64,000 bases of DNA from Rhodovulum sp. PH10 (GTDB lineage Bacteria > Pseudomonadota > Alphaproteobacteria > Rhizobiales > Xanthobacteraceae). The DNA is taken from positions 1 to 64,000 of the forward strand of contig NZ_AKZI01000045.1 in the NCBI RefSeq assembly GCF_000293785.1, written 5' to 3'. The notes under the pieces were generated by a model. It ran no database searches. It saw only the letters and a list, made by a program, of their open reading frames with translations, and was not told the DNA's origin. Each line of letters begins with the position of its first letter. The first letter of the stretch is position 1. The position numbers were made by a program, and so were the translations under genes. This document shows positions 46-9,059 of this stretch, piece by piece.

Positions 46-1509
46 CTAGTCGTGCAAGTCTTCCATTGGCAACGAAATCCGGCAGACCAGCCCTTCCGGC
101 TCGAACACGACTTCCGCCCCACCCGTGTACGAGTATTGGAGGCTCCGCGCGATGACGGTTTGTCCGAAGCCTTGGCGGAGCGGAGGTTCGACGCGAGGGC
201 CACCGCGCTCGCGCCATTCCACGACGAAGCGATCTTCGTCGTCGGGCTGCGCGACCCGCTGCACGAAAACCTTCCCGCCAGTGACGGACAGCGCGCCATA
301 CTTCGCGGCGTTGGTGGCGAGCTCGTGGATGACGAGCCCGAAGGCGATCGCCGCCCGCGGAGCCATGAGGCGCCCGAGATCGCGGGTGACGAGCCGACCC
401 GTGACGCCGCCGGTGAAGGGCGCGAGCTCGCTCTGCACGACGTCTTCGATCTTCAGGCTGGTCCAGGAGTTTTCCGCCAGGAGGTTGTGCGTCGCGGCCA
501 GCGCCTCGATGCGTCCGGTGAAGGCCTTGTGAAAGCCTTCCAGCGTGTCTTCGTGGTGCAGCGTCCGGCTCGCGATCGAGAGGACGAGGGTGAGCGTGTT
601 CTTCACCCGGTGGTCGAGCTCGCGCATCAGGAGGAGCTGCCGCTTCTCGGCCTCCTTGCGCTGCGACAGATCCACCATCGTGACGACGCAGCCGCTGATC
701 GCGTCGTTGCCGATCCGAAGCGGTGCCGCGCTCACGAGGAAGTCCTTCACCTTCGGAGCGTTCGGCGCGTAGGCCTCGACGCCCTGCACGGCGGTGCCTC
801 GCGTCGCCATGTACACGATGTCCTCGGCCTGCATGAGCCCCGTCGCATTGGGAAGCTTCAGCGGGACCGCTTCGGCGAATTCCATGCCGAGCGGATCGCC
901 ATCGAACACGGCGTGGGCGGCGGCGTTCGCATGGGTGATGACGCCGTCCTTGTCGCAGACCAGCACCGCCTCGTTCGCCGATGCGATGACGGCTCTGGCG
1001 GCGCGCTCGCTCTGCTCGGCCGCCTCGGCGCGCACGCGTTCGGTCACGTCGGTGAAGGTGATCGCCACAGCCGGCGTGGTCGAAAGCTGGAAGGTGTTGG
1101 CGGCGAGGATGTAGTGAACCGTCTCGCCGTTCCGCTCGAAGTCGACCTGCTTCGAGAGCGCGCCCTGGAACGGCGGCACCAGGAGATGGTCGACGGCCTC
1201 CGCGACCTCCACCGGCGCCACGTCCGAGATCAGGCTCCCCCGCACGGAGTTCTGCGTCAGGCCGAGCGCCGAGGTCAGGTTGGCGTTTGCATACAAAATC
1301 CTGCCGGACTGGTCGATTGCCGCCGCACCGACATTCATCACCTCCATGAAGGCGTGATAGGCGTCGGCGCCACCGCCGATGTCGAACACCTGCTGGTCGC
1401 CCTGCTGGCCGACCACCAGCGCGTCGACATCGCCCTGCCGGATCGCGCGGATCGTGTCCTCGGCTTCCGCCAGGCGCCGCCGGAGCTCGGCGATCTCGTC
1501 CAGGCTCAT
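46..1509 (-). CDS. HWE-family PAS sensor histidine kinase of the kai operon
   Basis: This 487-residue kinase has no membrane segment, so it should sense a cytoplasmic signal. A coiled N-terminus (about 1-40) is followed by two PAS-like segments (about 45-160 and 165-285). The phosphoacceptor box contains His300 in [11 protein letters not shown]. The N box [13 protein letters not shown] starts near 395, and WRE at 432-434 is the W-x-E mark of HWE kinases. There is no receiver domain, so the phosphate acceptor is encoded elsewhere. Its ATG overlaps the kaiB stop by four bases (ATGA), so it is the third gene of a kaiC-kaiB-kinase operon and is the likely output or input partner of the Kai proteins. 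The family call is firm; the link to Kai output is inferred from the operon. Confidence 0.93.
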
Positions 1510-1793
1510 TCGCCCTGAACCTTCAGTGAGACCAGCACTTTTTCGACATCGGAGAGATCCCCTATGATCTTGCGGATGGGAACCGGCAGCTCGCGCACCA
1601 GGGTGGGGATCGCAACGATGCTGTGTTCCTTGGCGAGCTTGGGGTTCTGCCTGAGATCGACGACCTCGACCTCGTACTGCCCGGCCAAGCGCTCCTCGGT
1701 GATCTTCCGGAGGTTGGCGATGGCGGCGAGAGACTTGGGCGTCTGCCCGGCCACGTAGAGGATGAGCTTCTTCGGAGATGCGGTGTCGGTCAT
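1506..1793 (-). CDS. kaiB: KaiB family protein
   Basis: This 95-residue protein has the KaiB thioredoxin-like length and the hallmark stretch [20 protein letters not shown] near residues 62-81. In cyanobacteria KaiB binds the KaiC CI ring and drives the inhibitory phase of the oscillator; in alphaproteobacteria it accompanies KaiC in a simpler timer or stress module. The ATG overlaps the kaiC stop (ATGA) and the stop overlaps the kinase start, so all three genes should be translationally coupled. No kaiA-like frame is seen nearby. Family assignment is sure; physiological role in this organism is inferred. Confidence 0.95.
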
Positions 1794-3490
1794 TTCAGTC
1801 TCGATCGGTTACCGCCGCTCCGGCTGACGTCCATCTCGTATGCGTCCGTAGCGGCCTGTCGAAGGTAATCGGTTTCGGCCTTGGAGACCCTTGCCAATTC
1901 CTTTTCGTCTGCGTCCAGTTCGGCCTGCAGCGCCTCGATCTGCGCCTGGGCCTTGCGCCGGCGCGTTTCGATCATGGCCTTGCTGCGCTCGACCTCGGCA
2001 AGCCGCGCGACCTCGGCGCGTCTGGTCTTCGCTTCCTCGAAGCGTCGCGCCGACCCGGTGAGAGCGCCCGTTTCGCCGAGATAGGGCGGCAGGAGCCGAA
2101 TGCCCGAACTGCTCATGACGAATTCGCGCACCTGGTTGGAATGCGCCGTGCCTCGCGCCTTGAGGAGGTAGAGCTCCCGGTTGAACTCCCCGTTCGCCTC
2201 CCGGTTGAGCATCAGGATCCAGCCGTCCATCAGCGAGGAGAGGCCGGCATCGGTGACGATCGCGCCTTCCTGGGAGTGCATCAGGTGGGTGAACATGCTG
2301 GAGATCCCACTGGTCTTGAGGAAGTCGACCATTCTCAGAAGCATGGACTGGACCTCTAGCCGGTCGCCACTTTCCATGAAGGCCGAGATCGGGTCGAGGA
2401 CCACCAGCTGCGGATCGAATTTCTGCACCTCGCGAAGCATGATCGCCAGGTGCATCTCGAGGCTGTAGAATGTCGGGCGCGCCGAGACGAAGCGGATGAG
2501 CCCTCTGTCGACGTAGGGTGCGAAGTCCAGCCCGATGGACGCCATGTTGCGAACGATTTGCCCCGGGGCTTCCTCGAACGAGAAATAGATCGCCCGCTCG
2601 CCTCGCACCGCAGCGGCGTGGACGAAGCTCGCGGAGAGCGAGGATTTCCCCGACCCCGCGACGCCCGAAACGAGGATCGACGATCCCCTGTGAAAGCCGC
2701 CTCCGACAATCATGTCGTCGAGATCGGCGACCCCCGACGGCACACGCTCGTCGAACACCCGATGGTCGAGCCCGAGCGAGCTGACAGGCAGCACCGAAAA
2801 GCCGTCCTGGTCGATCAGAAAGGGGTATTCGTTCGTCCCGTGCGCTGTCCCGCGATACTTCACGATGCGCATCCGCCGGGTCGAGATCTGATTGTGCACC
2901 CGGTGGTCGAGCAGGATCACGCAGTCGGAGACGTATTCCTCCAGCCCCTGCCGGGTGAGGGTGCCGTCGCCCCGCTCGGCGGTGATGACGGTCGTCATCC
3001 CCTTGTTCTTGAGCCAGTCGAACAGGCGGCGGATTTCCGCGCGCAGCACGGCCTGGTTGGTGAATGCGGAAAAGAGGCTTTCGATCGTGTCGAGGACCAC
3101 CCGCTTCGCGCCGATCGCGTCGATCGCGAGCTCGAGGCGCAGGAAAATGCCTTCGAGGTCGAAGTCGCCGATCTCGGCCACCTCCGACGGATCGATGGCG
3201 ATGTGCTCCATCGCGAGCAGGTCTCGGTCGATCAGCCCGCCCACGTCGAAGCCGAGCGACGCGACGTTTGCGGCGATGTCGGCCGGCTGTTCCTCGAACG
3301 TCACGAAGACACCCGGCTCGTCGTAGTCCCGCGCGCCGTGGACCAGGAAGGTCGTCGCGAAAAGGGTTTTTCCGCAGCCGGCCGATCCGCAGACGAGGGT
3401 GGGGCGTCCGCTGGGAACGCCGCCCAGCGTCAGATCGTCGAACCCTTCGATACCGGTGAGCGATTTCGCAATGCCTGAAGAGGAATCCAT
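1790..3490 (-). CDS. kaiC: KaiC-like double RecA-domain clock ATPase
   Basis: The 566 residues hold two RecA/KaiC domains. CI has Walker A GSAGCGKT at 35-42 and catalytic glutamates at 66-67. CII has Walker A GVAGSGKS at 276-283 and SFEEAPGQ near 304. By eye, the CII phosphosite region [10 protein letters not shown] places Ser418-Ser419 where the Synechococcus protein has Ser-Thr. After the CII core, residues about 483-545 form a charged coiled coil, making the protein longer than the 519-residue cyanobacterial one. The ATG follows GGAAACAAG. This is the first gene of the kaiC-kaiB-kinase operon. It is probably a KaiC2-type protein, judged from the coiled-coil tail rather than an alignment. 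Confidence 0.95.
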
Positions 3491-4654
3491 CTTGTTTCCA
3501 AACGAGCCGAGTGACTGCGTCCTACGGCACTGTCGGCACAGCCGCCGGCGTCGAGTGACGGTCGCAGGTCGCGGCCGATTGCGACAGTCGGCTTTTGGCT
3601 GTGCTTAAAGGATAACTACCCTCGTTGTCCATGTCGAGATTTCGCCCCCGAGCGGCCACCGACGCAGATGGACGGGCGCGGCGGGGCAGGCACTTTCCCG
3701 GCATCACATCGAGATCGCGCTCGATGGAGTCCATCGGCCGATCGTTCGGGATCTCGTCCGCGTGATCACGACGAAGGTCGGATTATGCAGTTCGGAGTAA
3801 GCAGTATCGCATAGCGCATGGTCGGCTCGATTGGACCGACAAAGGCGACCGGACCGCCTGGTCTTCGCAAGCGGGTCGGCCGGATGGCTGGCGAATACCA
3901 TCGAACACCTCGGCATCCAGCCGACGAGCGGCCTCGGTCCCGCCGCTCATCGCTCGAATACCGATGACCACTCATGCGTTCAGAGAGGTGCGTCGGCCAA
4001 GCGACGCATCCTGATGGATGCGCCGGGACGGCGATCCGCGATCCAACATATTCGGGCGATCGCCCCCCAAGATGGCTCGATCGTTCATATGCACCGTCAC
4101 AAATCACCAACCCTTTACGGGAACCCCATTCATTCGTGCTCGAAGATGGCTTTCACAAAAACCCTTTTTTCGCCGGTTCGACGGCGGATGGCTTCGAGTC
4201 GGAGCCCTTGTCGGCGTGCAGATGCGGGCGTCCGCCAGCGCCCGAAGCGCATCGGGGCTCGCAGCGACACCGCCGCCACGCGCCGGCAGCGACCTCGATG
4301 CCTCCTCGGTGGCGGTCAGCCGCGCCTCGGGCTTCGCGACGTCCTTGCCGCCCTTCCTCGGAATTTCGACGACATGCACCGCCGAGCACCGGTGCATGGA
4401 CGCCGCGACAGCCCCGTCGCTTCGGCCGCGAACGAGCGATCTCCGCACGGCGCCCGCCAGAGAAAATCATCGTCGCATTCGACCGCCCGACCAACGCGGT
4501 GTCGTTTTCTCCGCGCGCGTCTTGAACCGCGGCCGCGGTCGCGCCATCGATGAGGATCGGAGCCGCCGGGACGGCCGGGGATTGCGGAGCGACGGGCTCG
4601 GACCGGGCCCCGGGCCCGCGGAAAACGCATTCGAAGCGACAGGAGCCGATCACG
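3491..4654. other. 1.16-kb stretch without a convincing gene
   Basis: Between kaiC and the small membrane protein gene no frame on either strand has both a plausible ribosome-binding site and a recognisable product. The first ~150 bases should hold the kaiC promoter, but I could not fix a consensus. A minus-strand frame at 4104-4397 has coding-like third positions in its first two thirds. It then looks better continued in another frame to 4153, which may mark a decayed gene. Confidence 0.5.
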
Positions 4655-4846
4655 ATGCAGGGGGCGACCGTCATCGATCTTTCCGCCTACCGGGAGCACC
4701 GGCGCGCGACGGCCGCCGCGAAGACTTTCGCCGGCGCGGCACCGACCACGCCGCTGTTCGGCTGGACGATGGTCCCGATCGCTTTCATGGTGATGTGGAC
4801 GCCGGTCTTGCTGGTGCCGCGCCGCGGTGCCATCGACGATGAATAG
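4655..4846 (+). CDS. small single-pass membrane protein
   Basis: This is a 63-residue product. The ATG is preceded by AGGAG ten bases upstream, which favours this start over the longer upstream frame. The N-terminal half is polar (residues 1-30, DLSAYREHRR) and residues about 33-54 form one hydrophobic segment (FGWTMVPIAFMVMW). I do not recognise the family. Its stop lies a few bases inside the start of the following XRE-cupin regulator, so the two are probably co-transcribed and coupled. Confidence 0.6.
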   Translation: MQGATVIDLSAYREHRRATAAAKTFAGAAPTTPLFGWTMVPIAFMVMWTPVLLVPRRGAIDDE

Positions 4847-5471
4847 GCACGTGCCGTCGGACAGCTGCGACCGCGATCCGCCTGCCGACGACCACGACTC
4901 CGCGGCCGAGCTGCCGGCGATCGTCGGTCGCAATCTGCGCCGCCTGCGCACCCGTCGCGGCCATTCGCTCGAGCGCCTCGCGAAGCTCTCGGGCGTCAGC
5001 CGCGCCATGCTGGGGCAGATCGAGACCGGCAAGAGCGCCCCGACCATCAGCCTGTTGTGGAAGGTCGCCACCGCGCTCGGCGTGCCGTTCGCCAATCTTC
5101 TGGCGCACCAGAACGAGTCCGGCACGATCGTGCTGCGGCGCGACCGCGCGAAAGTCCTCGCATCGAGCGACGGACGGTTCACCTCGCGCGCGCTGTTTCC
5201 GTTCGAGAGCGAGCGGCAGGTCGAGTTCTACGAGATCCGGATCGCGCCCTATCACCGCGAGGACGCCCGCGAGCACGCCCCCGGAACTCACGAAAATCTC
5301 ATCGTGGCGAAGGGCGCCATCGAGATTTTGATCGGCACCGAGCCGCCGCACGCGCTGGCCGAGGGCGATGCCATCCTGTTCGAGGCGGACGTGCCGCACG
5401 GCTACCGGAATTTCGGCTCCACCGAGGCGGTGCTGTACCTCGTCATGACCTATGTCGAGACGGTCGGCTGA
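4839..5471 (+). CDS. XRE-family transcriptional regulator with C-terminal cupin
   Basis: This 210-residue regulator has an N-terminal helix-turn-helix at about 29-87 (LAKLSGVSRAMLGQIETGKS) and a C-terminal cupin at about 136-205, with candidate ligand histidines at 147, 151 and 187. Such proteins sense a small molecule in the cupin and repress or activate nearby genes; sulfur compounds, polyamines and amino acids are known effectors in the family. The start overlaps the end of the small membrane protein gene. A start 12 bases upstream is also possible. It converges on the Met-rich gene group, so control of that group is possible but unproven. Confidence 0.88.
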   Translation: MNRHVPSDSCDRDPPADDHDSAAELPAIVGRNLRRLRTRRGHSLERLAKLSGVSRAMLGQIETGKSAPTISLLWKVATALGVPFANLLAHQNESGTIVLRRDRAKVLASSDGRFTSRALFPFESERQVEFYEIRIAPYHREDAREHAPGTHENLIVAKGAIEILIGTEPPHALAEGDAILFEADVPHGYRNFGSTEAVLYLVMTYVETVG

Positions 5472-5514
5472 GAGACCGTTTGGTCCACCGTCCGGTGTCC
5501 AGCACCGACAGCGG

Positions 5515-5535
5515 GAGGCCGGCAGCGTCGGCCTC
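5515..5535. terminator. small hairpin between convergent genes
   Basis: GAGGCCG and CGGCCTC pair perfectly over 7 bp around a 7-nt loop, in the 90-base gap between the convergent regulator and Met-rich genes. There is no T-run, so a termination role is only suggested by position. Confidence 0.35.
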
Positions 5536-5561
5536 GCCGTCCGTTCGTTCCGACCGCGCGA

Positions 5562-5939
5562 TCACTTCGCCATCGGCATGCAGCACATCGTCATGCCGCC
5601 GCACGCCATCATCATCGGCATGCCGTTGCCCATCATGGTGCACATGGTCTGGCAGCACTGCATGAACATGTCTTTCATGGACGGGTCCATCGGCATCATC
5701 TCGCAGGTCATGCCGGTCGGCGTCATCGTGCAGGTCGTCCTGCACATCATCATCGGCATCATGCCGCCCATGCCCGTCATCGGGTTCATCATGGGATTCA
5801 TTCCCGACATCATGCCCATCGGCATCATCGAGTTCATCATCGGATTCATCATCGGCATCATGCCCATCATCGGCATGTTCATCATCGGCATCGCAGTCGG
5901 CATCGTCGGCATCGTCGGCATCGTCATGGTGGCAGTCAT
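5562..5939 (-). CDS. extremely methionine- and cysteine-rich small protein
   Basis: Of 125 residues I count 51 methionines and 9 cysteines. The N-terminal half is built from MPT, then PMMN/PMMG-type repeats with no cysteine. The C-terminal half carries all nine cysteines in C-x3-C, CC and C-x5-CC arrangements mixed with Met. There is no signal peptide or membrane segment, so it should be cytoplasmic. The start is set by GGAGCAAGACG directly before the ATG; longer upstream reading has no such site. Such composition suits soft-metal (copper(I), silver) binding or a sulfur amino acid store; neither is shown by homology. The low-complexity CAT/GAT pattern could tempt one to reject it, but the ribosome-binding site and coherent cysteine domain argue for a real gene. 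Confidence 0.75.
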   Translation of the reverse strand: MTATMTMPTMPTMPTAMPMMNMPMMGMMPMMNPMMNSMMPMGMMSGMNPMMNPMTGMGGMMPMMMCRTTCTMTPTGMTCEMMPMDPSMKDMFMQCCQTMCTMMGNGMPMMMACGGMTMCCMPMAK

Positions 5940-6281
5940 CGTCTTGCTCCGGTCGTGTGACGGACCATCTCCGTCGTTCGATCGGAGCCTAGGCCGACGG
6001 TACGATGCTGCAAGCGACAAGCCGTGACACCGAACGCTTTCCTCCACTCCACCGACGCATCCGCGAGAGAAACGGACGAGACGCTCGAGATCGCGGAGAT
6101 CCGTCCGCCATATCGGACGATCGCCTGCCCCATTCCGCCCTTCGACGACGCTCGCAGCGTCGTGCCCGGACGCGAGCCCGCGTCCGGGATACAGCGGCGG
6201 CCGGCGTGACGACCAGATTCACCGGAGGCGCGCCCTGCCCCGCGGCACGTATCGTCGCCTGCAGCGCGTCTCGTCGCCGAG
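5940..6281. other. 342-nt spacer in the Met-rich gene group
   Basis: No credible coding frame. The last ~40 bases next to the Met-rich gene (about 5937-5975) resemble the leader of the 61-aa gene at about 6465-6505. Nothing else recognised. Confidence 0.5.
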
Positions 6282-6467
6282 TCAGCCCGCCGACGTCGGC
6301 CGCGCATCGGTGCGCGCCGGCCCGGCTGCCGACGGATGGCGCGCCGCACGGACCAGATGGAACAACAGCGCCGTCGCGGCGACGTGGATCAGGTCGCGGT
6401 CGGCGGCGGCGATCGTCGCGGGCTTGCGCGCGTGGCGGGACGTGGATTCGAAGGTGGTGTCGAGCAT
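6282..6467 (-). CDS. 61-residue protein sharing its leader with the Met-rich gene
   Basis: The start is chosen because the ATG is preceded by exactly the same CCGGAGCAAGACG as the Met-rich gene. The product is basic, with one amphipathic helical stretch (DLIHVAATALLFHLVRAA, about residues 24-41) and a Pro/Ala-rich tail. No family recognised. It overlaps the out-of-frame tail of the cystathionine beta-synthase-like reading frame. It lies on the same strand as, and upstream of, the Met-rich gene. It may be real, or a remnant of a duplicated gene start. Confidence 0.45.
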   Translation of the reverse strand: MLDTTFESTSRHARKPATIAAADRDLIHVAATALLFHLVRAARHPSAAGPARTDARPTSAG

Positions 6468-7669
6468 CGTCTTGCTCCGGCGCGGGTGGATCGTCTCGGC
6501 AACGCCACGACGCGGAGCAAGTTCGGTGCCAATTTCCACGTCGTCCACCGGATGCGATCGTCGATCAGAGGCCCCCGAGCGCAAAATCGAGATCGTCGAT
6601 CAGATCGTCGGCGTCCTCGAGGCCGATCGAGAGGCGGATCAGCGAAGGGCGAATGCCGCGCGCGAGACGGTTCGACGAATCCCTGGTCGGCCATCCAGGT
6701 GTCGTTGAACATCTTCGAGAGATACTTGTTGCCGCTGTCCGGAAACAGCGTGACCACCCGCTTCGGCCGGGTCTGCTCGCGGCAGTAACGCAGCGCGGCG
6801 GCGAGCGCCGTGCCGGACGACGAGCCGGCCAGAATGCCCTCGCGTTTCAGAAGCTCGCGCGCGGCGAGGAACGCCTCCCGGTCGGTCACCGTGTAGCCAC
6901 GCTGCACGCGAGAAAGGTCCGCGTTGGGCGGCACGAAATCCTCGCCGATGCCTTCGACCAGCCAAGCGCCCGGCGTTCGTGGCGTGCGCCCCTCGACCAC
7001 GTCGATCAGGATCGAGCCGTCGGGATCGGCGAGCACGATCTCGGTCGCCGGCGACGTGCGGGCGAAGAAACGCGACAGGCCGGTGAGCGTCCCGCCCGAG
7101 CCGACGCCGCACACCACCGCGTCGAGACGGTGGTCCATCTGCTCGAAGATTTCCGGCGCCGTTCCGGTCTCGTGCGCGAGCGGATTGGCCGGGTTGGCGA
7201 ACTGGTTCACGTACACGGCGCCGGGCGTCTCGGCGGTGATGCGCTCGGCGAGATCCTGATAATACTCCGGATGCCCCTTGCCGACGTCGGAGCGGGTCAT
7301 CACCACCTCGGCGCCCAGCGCCTTCAGATGCAGCACCTTCTCGCGGCTCATCTTGTCGGGAATGACCAGGATCAGCCGATAACCTTTCAGCGCGGCGACC
7401 AGCGCGAGGCCGAGGCCGGTGTTGCCGGCGGTCGCCTCGACCAGCGTGCCGCCGGCGGTCAGCCGGCCGTCGCGCTCGAACGCTCGGATCATCGCGAGCG
7501 CCGGCCGATCCTTGATCGAGCCGCCCGGGTTCTGGCCCTCGAGCTTCGCGAACAGGCGGCACGGACCGGTGTCGAGCCGGGTCAGCTCGACGAGCGGCGT
7601 GTCGCCGATCAGCGCGAGCAGTCCCCCGCTCGCCCTGTCGGCGGGTCCGATGCGGACGGCCTCGTTCAT
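6389..7669 (-). CDS. cystathionine beta-synthase/cysteine synthase-like PLP enzyme with aberrant C-terminus
   Basis: Residues 20-333 are a complete fold-type II PLP enzyme joining a thiol to an activated serine. They include the Schiff-base lysine region NPGGSIKDRP (Lys53), the substrate loop EATAGNTG near 78-85, the phosphate loop GVGSGGT at 188-194 and AGSSSG at 281-286. The segment YLSKMFNDTWMADQGF (316-331) is typical of cystathionine beta-synthase-like proteins lacking CBS domains. After about residue 335 the frame passes into DNA whose other frame encodes the tail of a gamma-family transsulfuration enzyme, so the last ~90 residues are junk. The core may still be active. The start has GAGGTCGAG before ATG; an upstream extension to 7900 is not supported. 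Confidence 0.85.
   Translation of the reverse strand: MNEAVRIGPADRASGGLLALIGDTPLVELTRLDTGPCRLFAKLEGQNPGGSIKDRPALAMIRAFERDGRLTAGGTLVEATAGNTGLGLALVAALKGYRLILVIPDKMSREKVLHLKALGAEVVMTRSDVGKGHPEYYQDLAERITAETPGAVYVNQFANPANPLAHETGTAPEIFEQMDHRLDAVVCGVGSGGTLTGLSRFFARTSPATEIVLADPDGSILIDVVEGRTPRTPGAWLVEGIGEDFVPPNADLSRVQRGYTVTDREAFLAARELLKREGILAGSSSGTALAAALRYCREQTRPKRVVTLFPDSGNKYLSKMFNDTWMADQGFVEPSRARHSPFADPPLDRPRGRRRSDRRSRFCARGPLIDDRIRWTTWKLAPNLLRVVALPRRSTRAGARRCSTPPSNPRPATRASPRRSPPPTAT
6565..6678 (-). pseudogene. 3' remnant of a cystathionine gamma-synthase/lyase-type gene
   Basis: In the frame one base off from the preceding synthase, the minus strand reads NRLARGIRPSLIRLSIG, then LEDADDLIDDLDFALGGL and a stop. 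This is the characteristic C-terminal end of the Cys/Met-metabolism PLP family (cystathionine gamma-synthase, gamma-lyase, O-succinylhomoserine sulfhydrylase). Only about 37 codons survive and no start exists. The junction with the synthase lies near 6665-6680. A normal beta-synthase/gamma-lyase gene pair appears to have lost everything in between. Confidence 0.75.
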
Positions 7670-8029
7670 CTCGACCTCGGCTGGTTTCTCACGTGATCTG
7701 CTTTGCGCGTCCGCAAGCGGCGTGGTCGACGCGATCCCGACCGACGGGTCGTGACGTCGTGACGTCGTGATACCGTGACGTAGCGACATCGAACGTCGCA
7801 TTCGGCGATCGAGACTGCGGCCACCGCGGACCAGACCAGATACGCTCGCTCGTCCGGATCCTCCGATCCAAAAGCGTTCGATCCGAAATCGTCCGATCAT
7901 TGAAACGTCTGACCGCCGCGACGGACACGGTCAAGACGCCCTCCTGCATTCGCAACAATGCGTGATCACGCAGGCCGCGCGGTGGCACGATCTACCAAGG
8001 CTCGTGCCGAAGACGGAAAGTTTCACCTT

Positions 8030-8161
8030 TCAGAAAGGCGTCGGTGATGCGCGCTGAAAGCCGCGGTCGATCGCGTCGGCGATGATGTCGCCGCGCAGCG
8101 CGCCGCCCGCGCCGGAGACCCGCTCAATCCCGCGAAACAGATTGTCGGCCCGCCGTCGCAC
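8030..8161 (-). CDS. possible 43-residue ORF or 3' gene remnant
   Basis: The minus strand reads RADNLFRGIERVSGAG, then GALRGDIIADAIDRGFQRA and a stop, with protein-like composition and high third-position GC. The nearest start is a GTG at 8161 inside a hairpin, without a good ribosome-binding site. It may therefore be the surviving end of a lost gene rather than a functional small protein. I do not recognise the family. Confidence 0.3.
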   Translation of the reverse strand: MRRRADNLFRGIERVSGAGGALRGDIIADAIDRGFQRASPTPF

Positions 8162-8170
8162 GACGGCGGG
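8149..8170 (-). terminator. perfect 10-bp hairpin after the cyclase gene
   Basis: CCCGCCGTCG and CGACGGCGGG pair perfectly around a 2-nt loop, 17 bases past the cyclase stop codon. There is no T-run, so it is at best a GC-hairpin terminator or RNA-stabilising stem. Confidence 0.4.
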
Positions 8171-8186
8171 TCGGCCGCGCCCGCTC

Positions 8187-9059
8187 TCACGCCAGCGCCA
8201 GGAGCCGCACCGGGGCGCCGGTGGCGTCCTTCACCTTGGGCAGCCCGACCACCAGCGTCGCGCCGGAGGCCGGCGCCTGGTCGAGATTGGCGACGTTCTC
8301 GAGCCCCCAGCGGCCGGCCGGCAGCCAAATCTTGTGGGTCGGAAAGTCCTGCGACGCACCCTTGTCGAGCGACAGCGTGTCGACCGCGAGGCCGGCGACG
8401 TCGCGCTCCTTCAGGAGCCACAGGGCGGCCTCCGGGGCGATGCCGGGGAAATGCATGGTGCCGTCGATGTCGCGGCCGAGAAAGCGGCCGGTATCGCTGG
8501 TGGCGAGCTTGCCCCAGCCGGAATGCATCGCGACGCAGCAACCCGCCGGCAGCTTTCCGTGCGCGGCCTCGAAGGCGTCGAGATCGGCGCGCGAGAGGAG
8601 ATGGTCGGGATCGGCGTCGGCGGCCGCCGTCACGTCGATCACCGCGAGCGGCACCACCAGCGTCTCGACAGGAATCGCCTCCACCGCCGCCGCGTTCTCG
8701 GAGAAATGCACCGGCGCGTCGAGATGGGTGCCGGTGTGCTCCACCAGCGTCCAGGTCTTCATGTTGTAGCCGTCCTTGTCGAAGACGGCGCGATCCTCGA
8801 ACGTGATCGCCGGATCGCCGAGAAAGGTCGGGAAATCGGCCGTCAGCGTGTGGGTGAGGTCGATCACCCGCCGCCCCTCGCCGAGCATCGCCGCCGCCGG
8901 CCCCGGCGCCGGCCCGGCGAGCGCGCGACCGGCCGGCGCCACCGCGGTCGCGGCGAACGCCACCGTCCCCGCCCCGGTGCCGCGAAAGAAGCCGCGGCGC
9001 GAGACGCCCTCGCGCCGCACCGCTGCCCGCACCGCATCCATGCATCCGGCGACGCACAT
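8187..9059 (-). CDS. Tat-exported cyclase-family metal-dependent hydrolase
   Basis: This 290-residue protein starts at the ATG that follows GGGAGGACGGC; longer upstream frames lack such a site. Residues 20-25 (SRRGFF) followed by a hydrophobic stretch to about 50 form a twin-arginine signal, so the enzyme should act folded in the periplasm. The body is the cyclase/kynurenine-formamidase fold, with the metal motif HTGTHLDAPVHF at 108-119 and a second conserved region AVDTLSLD near 245. Substrate in this family is usually an amide or ester such as a formylkynurenine-like compound; the actual one is unknown. It is divergent from the lipid kinase gene that begins 200 bases away. Confidence 0.85.
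   Translation of the reverse strand: MCVAGCMDAVRAAVRREGVSRRGFFRGTGAGTVAFAATAVAPAGRALAGPAPGPAAAMLGEGRRVIDLTHTLTADFPTFLGDPAITFEDRAVFDKDGYNMKTWTLVEHTGTHLDAPVHFSENAAAVEAIPVETLVVPLAVIDVTAAADADPDHLLSRADLDAFEAAHGKLPAGCCVAMHSGWGKLATSDTGRFLGRDIDGTMHFPGIAPEAALWLLKERDVAGLAVDTLSLDKGASQDFPTHKIWLPAGRWGLENVANLDQAPASGATLVVGLPKVKDATGAPVRLLALA

Follow-up and report, generated by a model that had tools for sequence, protein, structure and literature searches.

What use might a bacterium have for a protein in which 51 of 125 residues are methionine and another 9 are cysteine? The question is raised by a short gene in the 64-kb stretch of DNA that was analyzed here, hereafter called the window (Table 1). A sequence-only reading had previously reported the frame and its residue counts with the strand unstated. 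The coordinates, the length, and both counts prove to be exact; translation of the minus strand from 5939 down to 5562 yields the 125 residues and then a stop codon. The plus strand of the same interval reads as a His/Arg-rich frame, and the coding strand is minus. The composition is extreme, as had been claimed, and lies well outside what chance would give: the window has 520 stop-to-stop frames of 60 codons or longer, and the methionine peak per 100-residue stretch is 43% in this frame, 15% in the next, and 9% in the one after that. The bipartite build had also been described accurately, with no cysteine in the first 62 residues and all nine in the remainder. The ATG start is backed both by the GGAG that precedes it and by the N termini of homologues, which read MTATMTMPTM in R. 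serenus and are MNPAMQMMPMM-like in many others. No export signal is evident by eye, and the protein is probably cytoplasmic. Upstream, a 61-codon open reading frame (ORF) at window positions 6282 to 6467 on the minus strand has the CCGGAGCAAGACGATG start context in common with the Met-rich gene and has no Pfam or NCBIfam match above cut-off.

Table 1. Features of the Met-rich locus, in window coordinates, with the evidence for each
Feature	Position	Strand	Evidence or remark
Small ORF, 63 aa, with VIDLxxYR... motif; its last 8 nt overlap the start of the regulator	4655..4846	+	Conserved third module member
XRE-cupin transcriptional regulator, tail to tail with the Met-rich gene	4839..5471	+	Pfam HTH_3 and Cupin_2
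GAGGCCG/CGGCCTC hairpin between the convergent genes	5515..5535	.	Possibly a bidirectional terminator
Met/Cys-rich protein gene	5562..5939	-	Translation, homologues, purifying selection
Codons 63-125, conserved Cys/Met core	5565..5753	-	Alignments
Codons 1-62, Cys-free Met tract (PTM, PMM, NPMM units)	5754..5939	-	Alignment; length varies among homologues
GGAG ribosome-binding site, 7 nt 5' of ATG	5947..5950	-	Sequence; aligned homologues have GGAG or a similar motif
GGAGGAAA box, 106 nt upstream of ATG	6038..6045	-	Conserved cis-element
Cystathionine beta-synthase-like region (catalytic part), upstream neighbor	6671..7618	-	tblastn, NCBIfam

Codon comparisons uphold the earlier argument that this is a real gene. 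Homologues occur across genera, and the dN/dS of the Met frame is 0.06 to 0.17 in 13 of 14 pairs, which overlap and hence are not independent; the window gene compared with that of R. serenus gives 0.30. Substitutions at codon positions 1, 2, and 3 of the Met frame number 85, 83, and 220, respectively. Conservation of the frame in relatives, to which the sequence-only reading had tied its case, was examined and found. Homologues and dN/dS rule out a chance or compositional artifact. The opposite strand warrants attention too. A codon-usage gene caller picked the antisense side in 21 of the 34 loci studied in detail (labeled with L numbers below) and the Met-rich strand in 6. Also, some Rhizobium plasmid records carry a hypothetical protein annotated antisense to the Met-rich gene (L059, 8651 to 9010; L061, 8683 to 9069; L062, 8571 to 8921), and the annotation in another plasmid record, L058, is on the Met-rich strand. 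Such antisense annotation in public records suggests that the family may be under-annotated. As a candidate for the true gene, the antisense ORF is ruled out by the third-position changes and by pN/pS, which is 0.08 to 0.40 for the Met frame and 0.23 to 0.92 for the best antisense frame, the Met frame being lower in every pair.

The Met-rich family is patchy in its distribution. Among 100 related genomes, 10 had a match at an E of ≤0.01, of which six were clear, the window's own genome among them; the weak matches L007 to L010 (E of 4e-4 to 2e-3, three of the four with internal stops) were left out of all counts. A collection of named genomes contributed 14 loci in eight genera (Rhodoplanes, Afipia, Nitrobacter, Rhodopseudomonas, Bradyrhizobium, Rhizobium, Mesorhizobium, and the myxobacterium Minicystis rosea). 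A profile of the core found matches in 11 genomes out of 397 from the order and in 6 out of 249 from the phylum, the window's own genome counted in. Four of those six phylum genomes belong to one family, which we take to be pseudomonad-like, and encode a protein of about 170 residues that contains two cores; this two-core version has matches in 34 of 248 genomes of that family. The tandem cores (L036 to L043, L053 to L056, and L084 to L094) hold 14 to 15 cysteines in the four examples counted. A plasmid search with the Met-rich protein as the query gave no match, perhaps owing to low-complexity filtering, and the regulator as the query did match; in all six plasmid loci examined, which came from the best 40 of 469 plasmid records matching the regulator, a Met-rich gene adjoins it.

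Across all 34 loci, which contain near-duplicates such as those on Rhizobium plasmids, methionine makes up 34 to 47% of the protein and methionine plus cysteine makes up 41 to 53%. From one homologue to the next, the N-terminal tract differs in length and order and holds its Met-rich composition. The core is conserved in another manner: certain Met, Gly, and Pro residues are invariant, cysteine is near-invariant at core positions 8, 17, 34, and 51, and CC and CGG motifs are present. One Mesorhizobium plasmid copy (L057, 8637 to 8780, with a script-chosen start) is apparently cut to 47 core residues with little Met tract. Searches of Pfam, NCBIfam, PHROGs, and PDB sequences gave no credible match for the Met-rich protein. 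The best family result, at chance level, was GATase_3 in 8 of 17 core members (best E = 0.04); an NCBIfam scan of 16 members at an E of ≤0.1 returned nothing for the window protein and one unrelated match (E = 0.09) in one member. An AlphaFold2 model of the core predicts, with low confidence (mean pLDDT, 59.4), a beta-beta-alpha-beta-beta arrangement of one helix and four strands, and a PDB fold search with this model gave no match at an E of ≤0.001.

The company that the gene keeps is more regular than its distribution. The neighboring regulator is a member of the XRE-cupin family, with an N-terminal XRE helix-turn-helix (HTH_3, 56 bits; cut-off, 23) and a C-terminal cupin (Cupin_2, 38.6 bits; cut-off, 27.2), and 90 bp separate its stop codon from that of the Met-rich gene. 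A relative of this regulator adjoins the Met-rich gene in 32 of 34 loci and is convergent with it in 31 of 34; in Minicystis, it lies upstream of the Met-rich gene on the same strand. The loci lacking the regulator are L017 and L056. In L056, the regulator side runs off the contig, and in the 20-kb stretch at L017/L142 (within about 10 kb of the Met-rich gene), no regulator was detected at an E of ≤1e-3. Pairing in 32 of 34 loci is consistent with control of the neighboring gene by the regulator. The third partner, a small ORF of 49 to 76 residues, stands 5' of the regulator in 30 of the 32 regulator-bearing loci, with a VIDLxxYRxxR-like start and often a WVPVW-type segment at the end. At L016, one of the two misses, a similar frame outside the search pattern is visible by eye. 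The small ORF has no Pfam match. Terminator scoring returned no terminator-like site for the hairpin stretch between the convergent genes. Together, the small ORF, the XRE-cupin regulator, and the Met-rich gene form a three-gene module for which we found no earlier description. A literature search likewise showed no work on the Met-rich family among the titles listed; its coverage of subscription journals was thin, making this weak evidence of absence. KaiB-like and KaiC-like frames, recognized by eye, occupy window positions 1506 to 3490 on the minus strand, about 1.2 kb from the module.

Relatives of the regulator may provide a clue to its ligand. At an E of ≤1e-40, the regulator has matches in 20 of 397 genomes, comprising all 11 with the Met-rich gene and 9 from one other family. 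The latter regulators are 45 to 57% identical; their genomes are absent from the set of Met-rich matches, and the 3.5-kb stretches around them showed neither a Met-rich gene nor a small ORF. Instead, a CysT-like ABC permease lies 3' of the regulator on the same strand in 8 of these 9 genomes, and all three permeases tested match CysT of the sulfate transporter (TIGR02139) well over cut-off. At L081, no permease follows the regulator in the stretch examined. The nearest solved relative of the regulator is 1Y9Q (E = 1.4e-25), aligned over residues 30 to 206 and thus both domains, and the available part of one study reports 1Y9Q with d-methionine in its cupin pocket (PMC7901475). The same portion of that work describes the XRE-cupin regulators studied as inhibiting neighboring genes and their known signals as pathway metabolites (PMC7901475). 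1Y9Q shares an HxxGxxE motif and a downstream HxY with those Met-rich-side regulators that were displayed. The four displayed from the CysT side have an altered HxxGxxE, and therefore their ligand may differ.

Upstream of the Met-rich gene is a conserved element that resembles an activator site and may function as one. In 22 of 34 loci, an exact GGAGGAAA box stands 94 to 124 bp 5' of the start picked by script, and five more have a variant at that place, admitted after inspection. It is missing in 7 of the 34 (four two-core loci, Minicystis, L012, and L057). In 20 promoters aligned and judged by eye, the box is about 24 bp 5' of a TTG-type -35 element. The longer pattern TTGGAGGAAA(A/G) turns up 15 times in the 34 loci, always at the place of the box, and is absent from 796,038 bp used as a control. 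In the window's own genome, TGGAGGAAAGC has a single occurrence, at this box, which is weak evidence because the reversed control pattern occurs only twice. Two other explanations for the box were rejected. A riboswitch or leader RNA finds no support in Rfam: no match passed the gathering score in nine loci, and a single sub-threshold match fell elsewhere in the stretch from 4300 to 8200. For an upstream small reading frame, no consistent start codon after the box is apparent by eye. The nine CysT-side loci have no GGAGGAAA with a preceding T or C. A by-eye search for a palindromic operator shared by the Met-rich gene and the regulator established none.

Which metabolism does the module serve? 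The sequence-only reading had noted a cystathionine beta-synthase (CBS)-like gene beside the Met-rich gene and had looked to sulfur metabolism accordingly. The gene is present, upstream and on the same strand; TIGR01137 is its best NCBIfam match, with 362 bits against a cut-off of 510, and it is 70% identical to its L051 counterpart over 316 alignment columns. At window positions 6566 to 6700 on the minus strand, another frame that follows the CBS-like region ends in SLIRLSIGLEDADDLIDDLDFALGGL, which by eye resembles the C terminus of the cystathionine gamma-lyase (CGL)-type protein of L051. This locus may be a CBS-CGL pair with a lost middle, or it may reflect an assembly fault; tblastn gave no significant CGL match. 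In L046 (6378 to 8881), CBS and CGL homologues come directly before the small ORF and regulator and share their strand, possibly in one operon.

Other Met-rich loci have sulfur-related neighbors of many kinds. An NCBIfam run on hand-picked neighbors gave matches over cut-off to MetI and a MetQ-family protein in R. serenus (L011), metC in Rhizobium (L019), MsrB in Mesorhizobium (L022), a NifH-type protein and O-acetylhomoserine sulfhydrylase in L051, MetQ-family and NtaA/DmoA-family proteins in L044, TauA and SsuD in L048, Xsc in L049, and SsuA in L015. Below cut-off were CBS-, cystathionine gamma-synthase/lyase-, NifB-, and NifD-like proteins in L051; a MetN-like protein in L011; cysK-, SsuD-, and SfnB-like matches in L019; SsuA-, YedE/TsuA-, and sulfurtransferase-like proteins in L044; sulfurtransferase-like proteins in L012 and L053; a MetQ-like protein in L016; a homocysteine methyltransferase-like protein in L050; and a weak SsuA-like match in L055. 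Four picked neighbors had no NCBIfam match at the thresholds used (L012, 2281 to 3273; L053, 2167 to 3066; L014, 4424 to 5431; L051, 5570 to 6970). On Rhizobium plasmids, the annotations near the Met-rich gene include tauA, gamma-glutamylcyclotransferase, msuE, and an LLM monooxygenase. The Nif-like genes of L051 resemble the methylthio-alkane reductase MarHDK and may be Mar genes; the available part of the source describes MarHDK as homologous to nitrogenase and as taking part in the anaerobic salvage of methionine (PMC10418091).

Hand-picking is biased, and therefore a controlled tblastn comparison was run. The queries were 22 sulfur proteins from the loci (CysT being from a regulator-only genome), and the own locus of each query was excluded. 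At least one match to a sulfur gene was present within about 10 kb at 13 of the 24 Met-rich loci and at 2 of the 40 control regions (P = 1.3e-5 by the Fisher test), which supports the proposed sulfur context. The control regions were drawn from 14 of the 24 genomes; restricting the loci to those 14 genomes gave 6 of 14 versus 2 of 40 (P = 0.0024). When L049, L050, and L051, all from one genus, were collapsed and a weak L136 match (32%) was dropped, the count was 10 of 22 (P = 0.00025). By this test, 11 of the 24 loci have no sulfur gene. Also, an SsuA-family gene is within 10 kb in 5 of 17 genomes, compared with about 0.5 expected from length arithmetic.

The analysis shows a conserved family, its near-constant pairing with a regulator and a small ORF, a composition kept despite N-terminal drift, and an enrichment of sulfur genes around it. 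We propose that the Met-rich protein is a store of methionine and cysteine, a reading to which we assign a probability of roughly 0.45. A polymer of methionine and cysteine, regulator kin that precede sulfate-type permeases, and neighborhoods of sulfur salvage make a reserve switched by sulfur status the best explanation for the module. Surplus sulfur amino acid would be packed into a disposable Met tract and a Cys/Met core, presumably accumulating in the cytoplasm, and proteolysis would recover methionine and cysteine when sulfur is scarce. The adjacent XRE-cupin regulator would set synthesis by sensing sulfur status, perhaps methionine itself, and would release or activate the Met-rich gene when sulfur amino acid is plentiful. 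Position-by-position conservation of the core exceeds the need of a bulk store and so weighs against this model, but the core could serve packing, thiol storage, or handover to a protease. A second difficulty concerns timing. Many neighbors of the Met-rich gene are of a kind that we take to be induced in sulfur starvation, when a protein with 51 methionines would be costly, and so the store model needs the gene to be off under those conditions or else needs methionine-yielding salvage to act as the nutrient. Also counting against it are the 11 loci without a sulfur gene in the tblastn comparison, the altered HxxGxxE of the CysT-side regulators, the want of an established shared operator, the loci lacking the box, the Met-rich gene at L017/L142 with no regulator nearby, and the patchy distribution. 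Storage was one of two functions that the sequence-only reading had put forward, and it gains circumstantial support from the sulfur-acquisition neighbors, the regulator kin before CysT-like permeases, and 1Y9Q, which is reported to bind methionine.

The other function then proposed, a soft-metal sink, gains no support from its genomic context. As a buffer for Cu(I), Ag(I), or a similar ion, the core would bind metal and the Met tract would add weak sites, with the sulfur context reflecting protection of sulfur enzymes or thiol pools. No copper-ATPase (TIGR01511) match was found within 20 kb of the Met-rich gene in 17 genomes as far as their contigs reach; all 17 carry TIGR01511 genes elsewhere, and several contigs, the window's own included, end within 20 kb. 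Moreover, no copper sensor or exporter was noticed by eye in the gene lists, and the Met-rich protein has no credible family match. Nevertheless, Met-rich motifs are known Cu(I) ligands, the near-invariant cysteines and the CC and CGG motifs of the core fit a metal site, and two plasmid loci have a copper-type gene several kilobases away (a tyrosinase in L057 and an SCO protein in L060). We regard metal buffering as unlikely.

It is still less probable that the protein is a gauge of sulfur supply, with its translation limited by methionine and cysteine and its binding to the regulator or the small ORF product reporting sufficiency. The near-constant pairing with these two partners and a conserved core that could bind one of them would suit such a role, but the Met-rich gene and the regulator gene converge in 31 of 34 loci, which places them on separate transcripts, and so many methionine residues would be superfluous for a gauge. 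Least probable is a sacrificial oxidant sink, in which methionine would be oxidized to its sulfoxide and then restored by Msr enzymes, the role put forward for MrpX and BcrX in the available part of PMC8315932 but here in the cytoplasm: it draws on the very high methionine content and an MsrB gene about 1.3 kb upstream in L022, yet the MsrB query had no match in the other loci of the 24-locus test, the window protein has a single MKD, the only NCBIfam match among 16 members (E of ≤0.1) is at chance level, no export signal is evident by eye, and neither msrPQ nor an ECF sigma factor was noticed by eye in the gene lists. The remaining probability goes to roles not yet thought of.

Bacterial stores of carbon, nitrogen, phosphorus, and iron are textbook knowledge; no bacterial polypeptide that holds methionine and cysteine in reserve is known to us, nor did one appear among the papers listed in a literature search. 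If storage is the true role, then some bacteria keep their sulfur amino acids in a dedicated protein. In more general terms, alphaproteobacteria, a further proteobacterial family, and a myxobacterium would possess a dedicated, regulated methionine/cysteine store, made of a compositionally selected polymer with a conserved handling domain, encoded in a three-gene module with a methionine- or sulfur-sensing switch, and often situated inside sulfur-salvage clusters; we advance this wider proposition tentatively, at somewhat less than an even chance. If the protein is a metal binder or an oxidant absorber instead, then an unexpected link exists between that task and sulfur nutrition. Whatever its role, this is a Met-rich family without a credible database match, and its own regulator gene makes the question directly testable in Rhodopseudomonas, Rhizobium, or Pseudomonas, which are amenable to genetics. 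What is new here rests on the family, the module, and the sulfur linkage, and is less new if the role is metal or oxidant buffering.

Comparison with known systems places the family near several precedents. Copper storage proteins (Csp) and metallothioneins are likewise small and rich in sulfur ligands. In contrast to both, methionine outweighs cysteine in the protein described here, which has no family match and none of the copper-ATPase proximity sought above; the Csp fold is a Cys-lined four-helix bundle, whereas the core is predicted, at the low confidence already given (pLDDT, 59.4), to be mixed alpha/beta. Plant Met-rich seed storage proteins, although less Met-rich than this protein, are a protein-bound methionine reserve and so offer an analogy for the role proposed here. 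Among microbial proteins, the archaeal iron-sulfur store IssA is described, in the available part of the source, as storing sulfur (PMC5524996); it stores inorganic thioferrate, not amino-acid sulfur.

The MXKDX peptides MrpX and BcrX, which scavenge HOCl, are also small, Met-rich, and bacterial, with a dedicated regulator nearby. MrpX is called periplasmic and BcrX is placed with msrPQ homologues and an ECF sigma factor in the part of the source available (PMC8315932). Unlike these peptides, the Met-rich protein has a Cys core, an XRE-cupin regulator, and sulfur-uptake neighbors, and the window protein shows one MKD in place of a repeated MxKDx motif and no NCBIfam match to the MXKDX family model. 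The regulator itself has the two domains of the XRE-cupin family (1Y9Q, PauR, and PsdR) and its habit of local gene pairing. Published Pseudomonas aeruginosa members mostly control enzyme and transporter genes, according to the available part of PMC7901475, whereas the constant partner of the regulator described here is the Met-rich protein.
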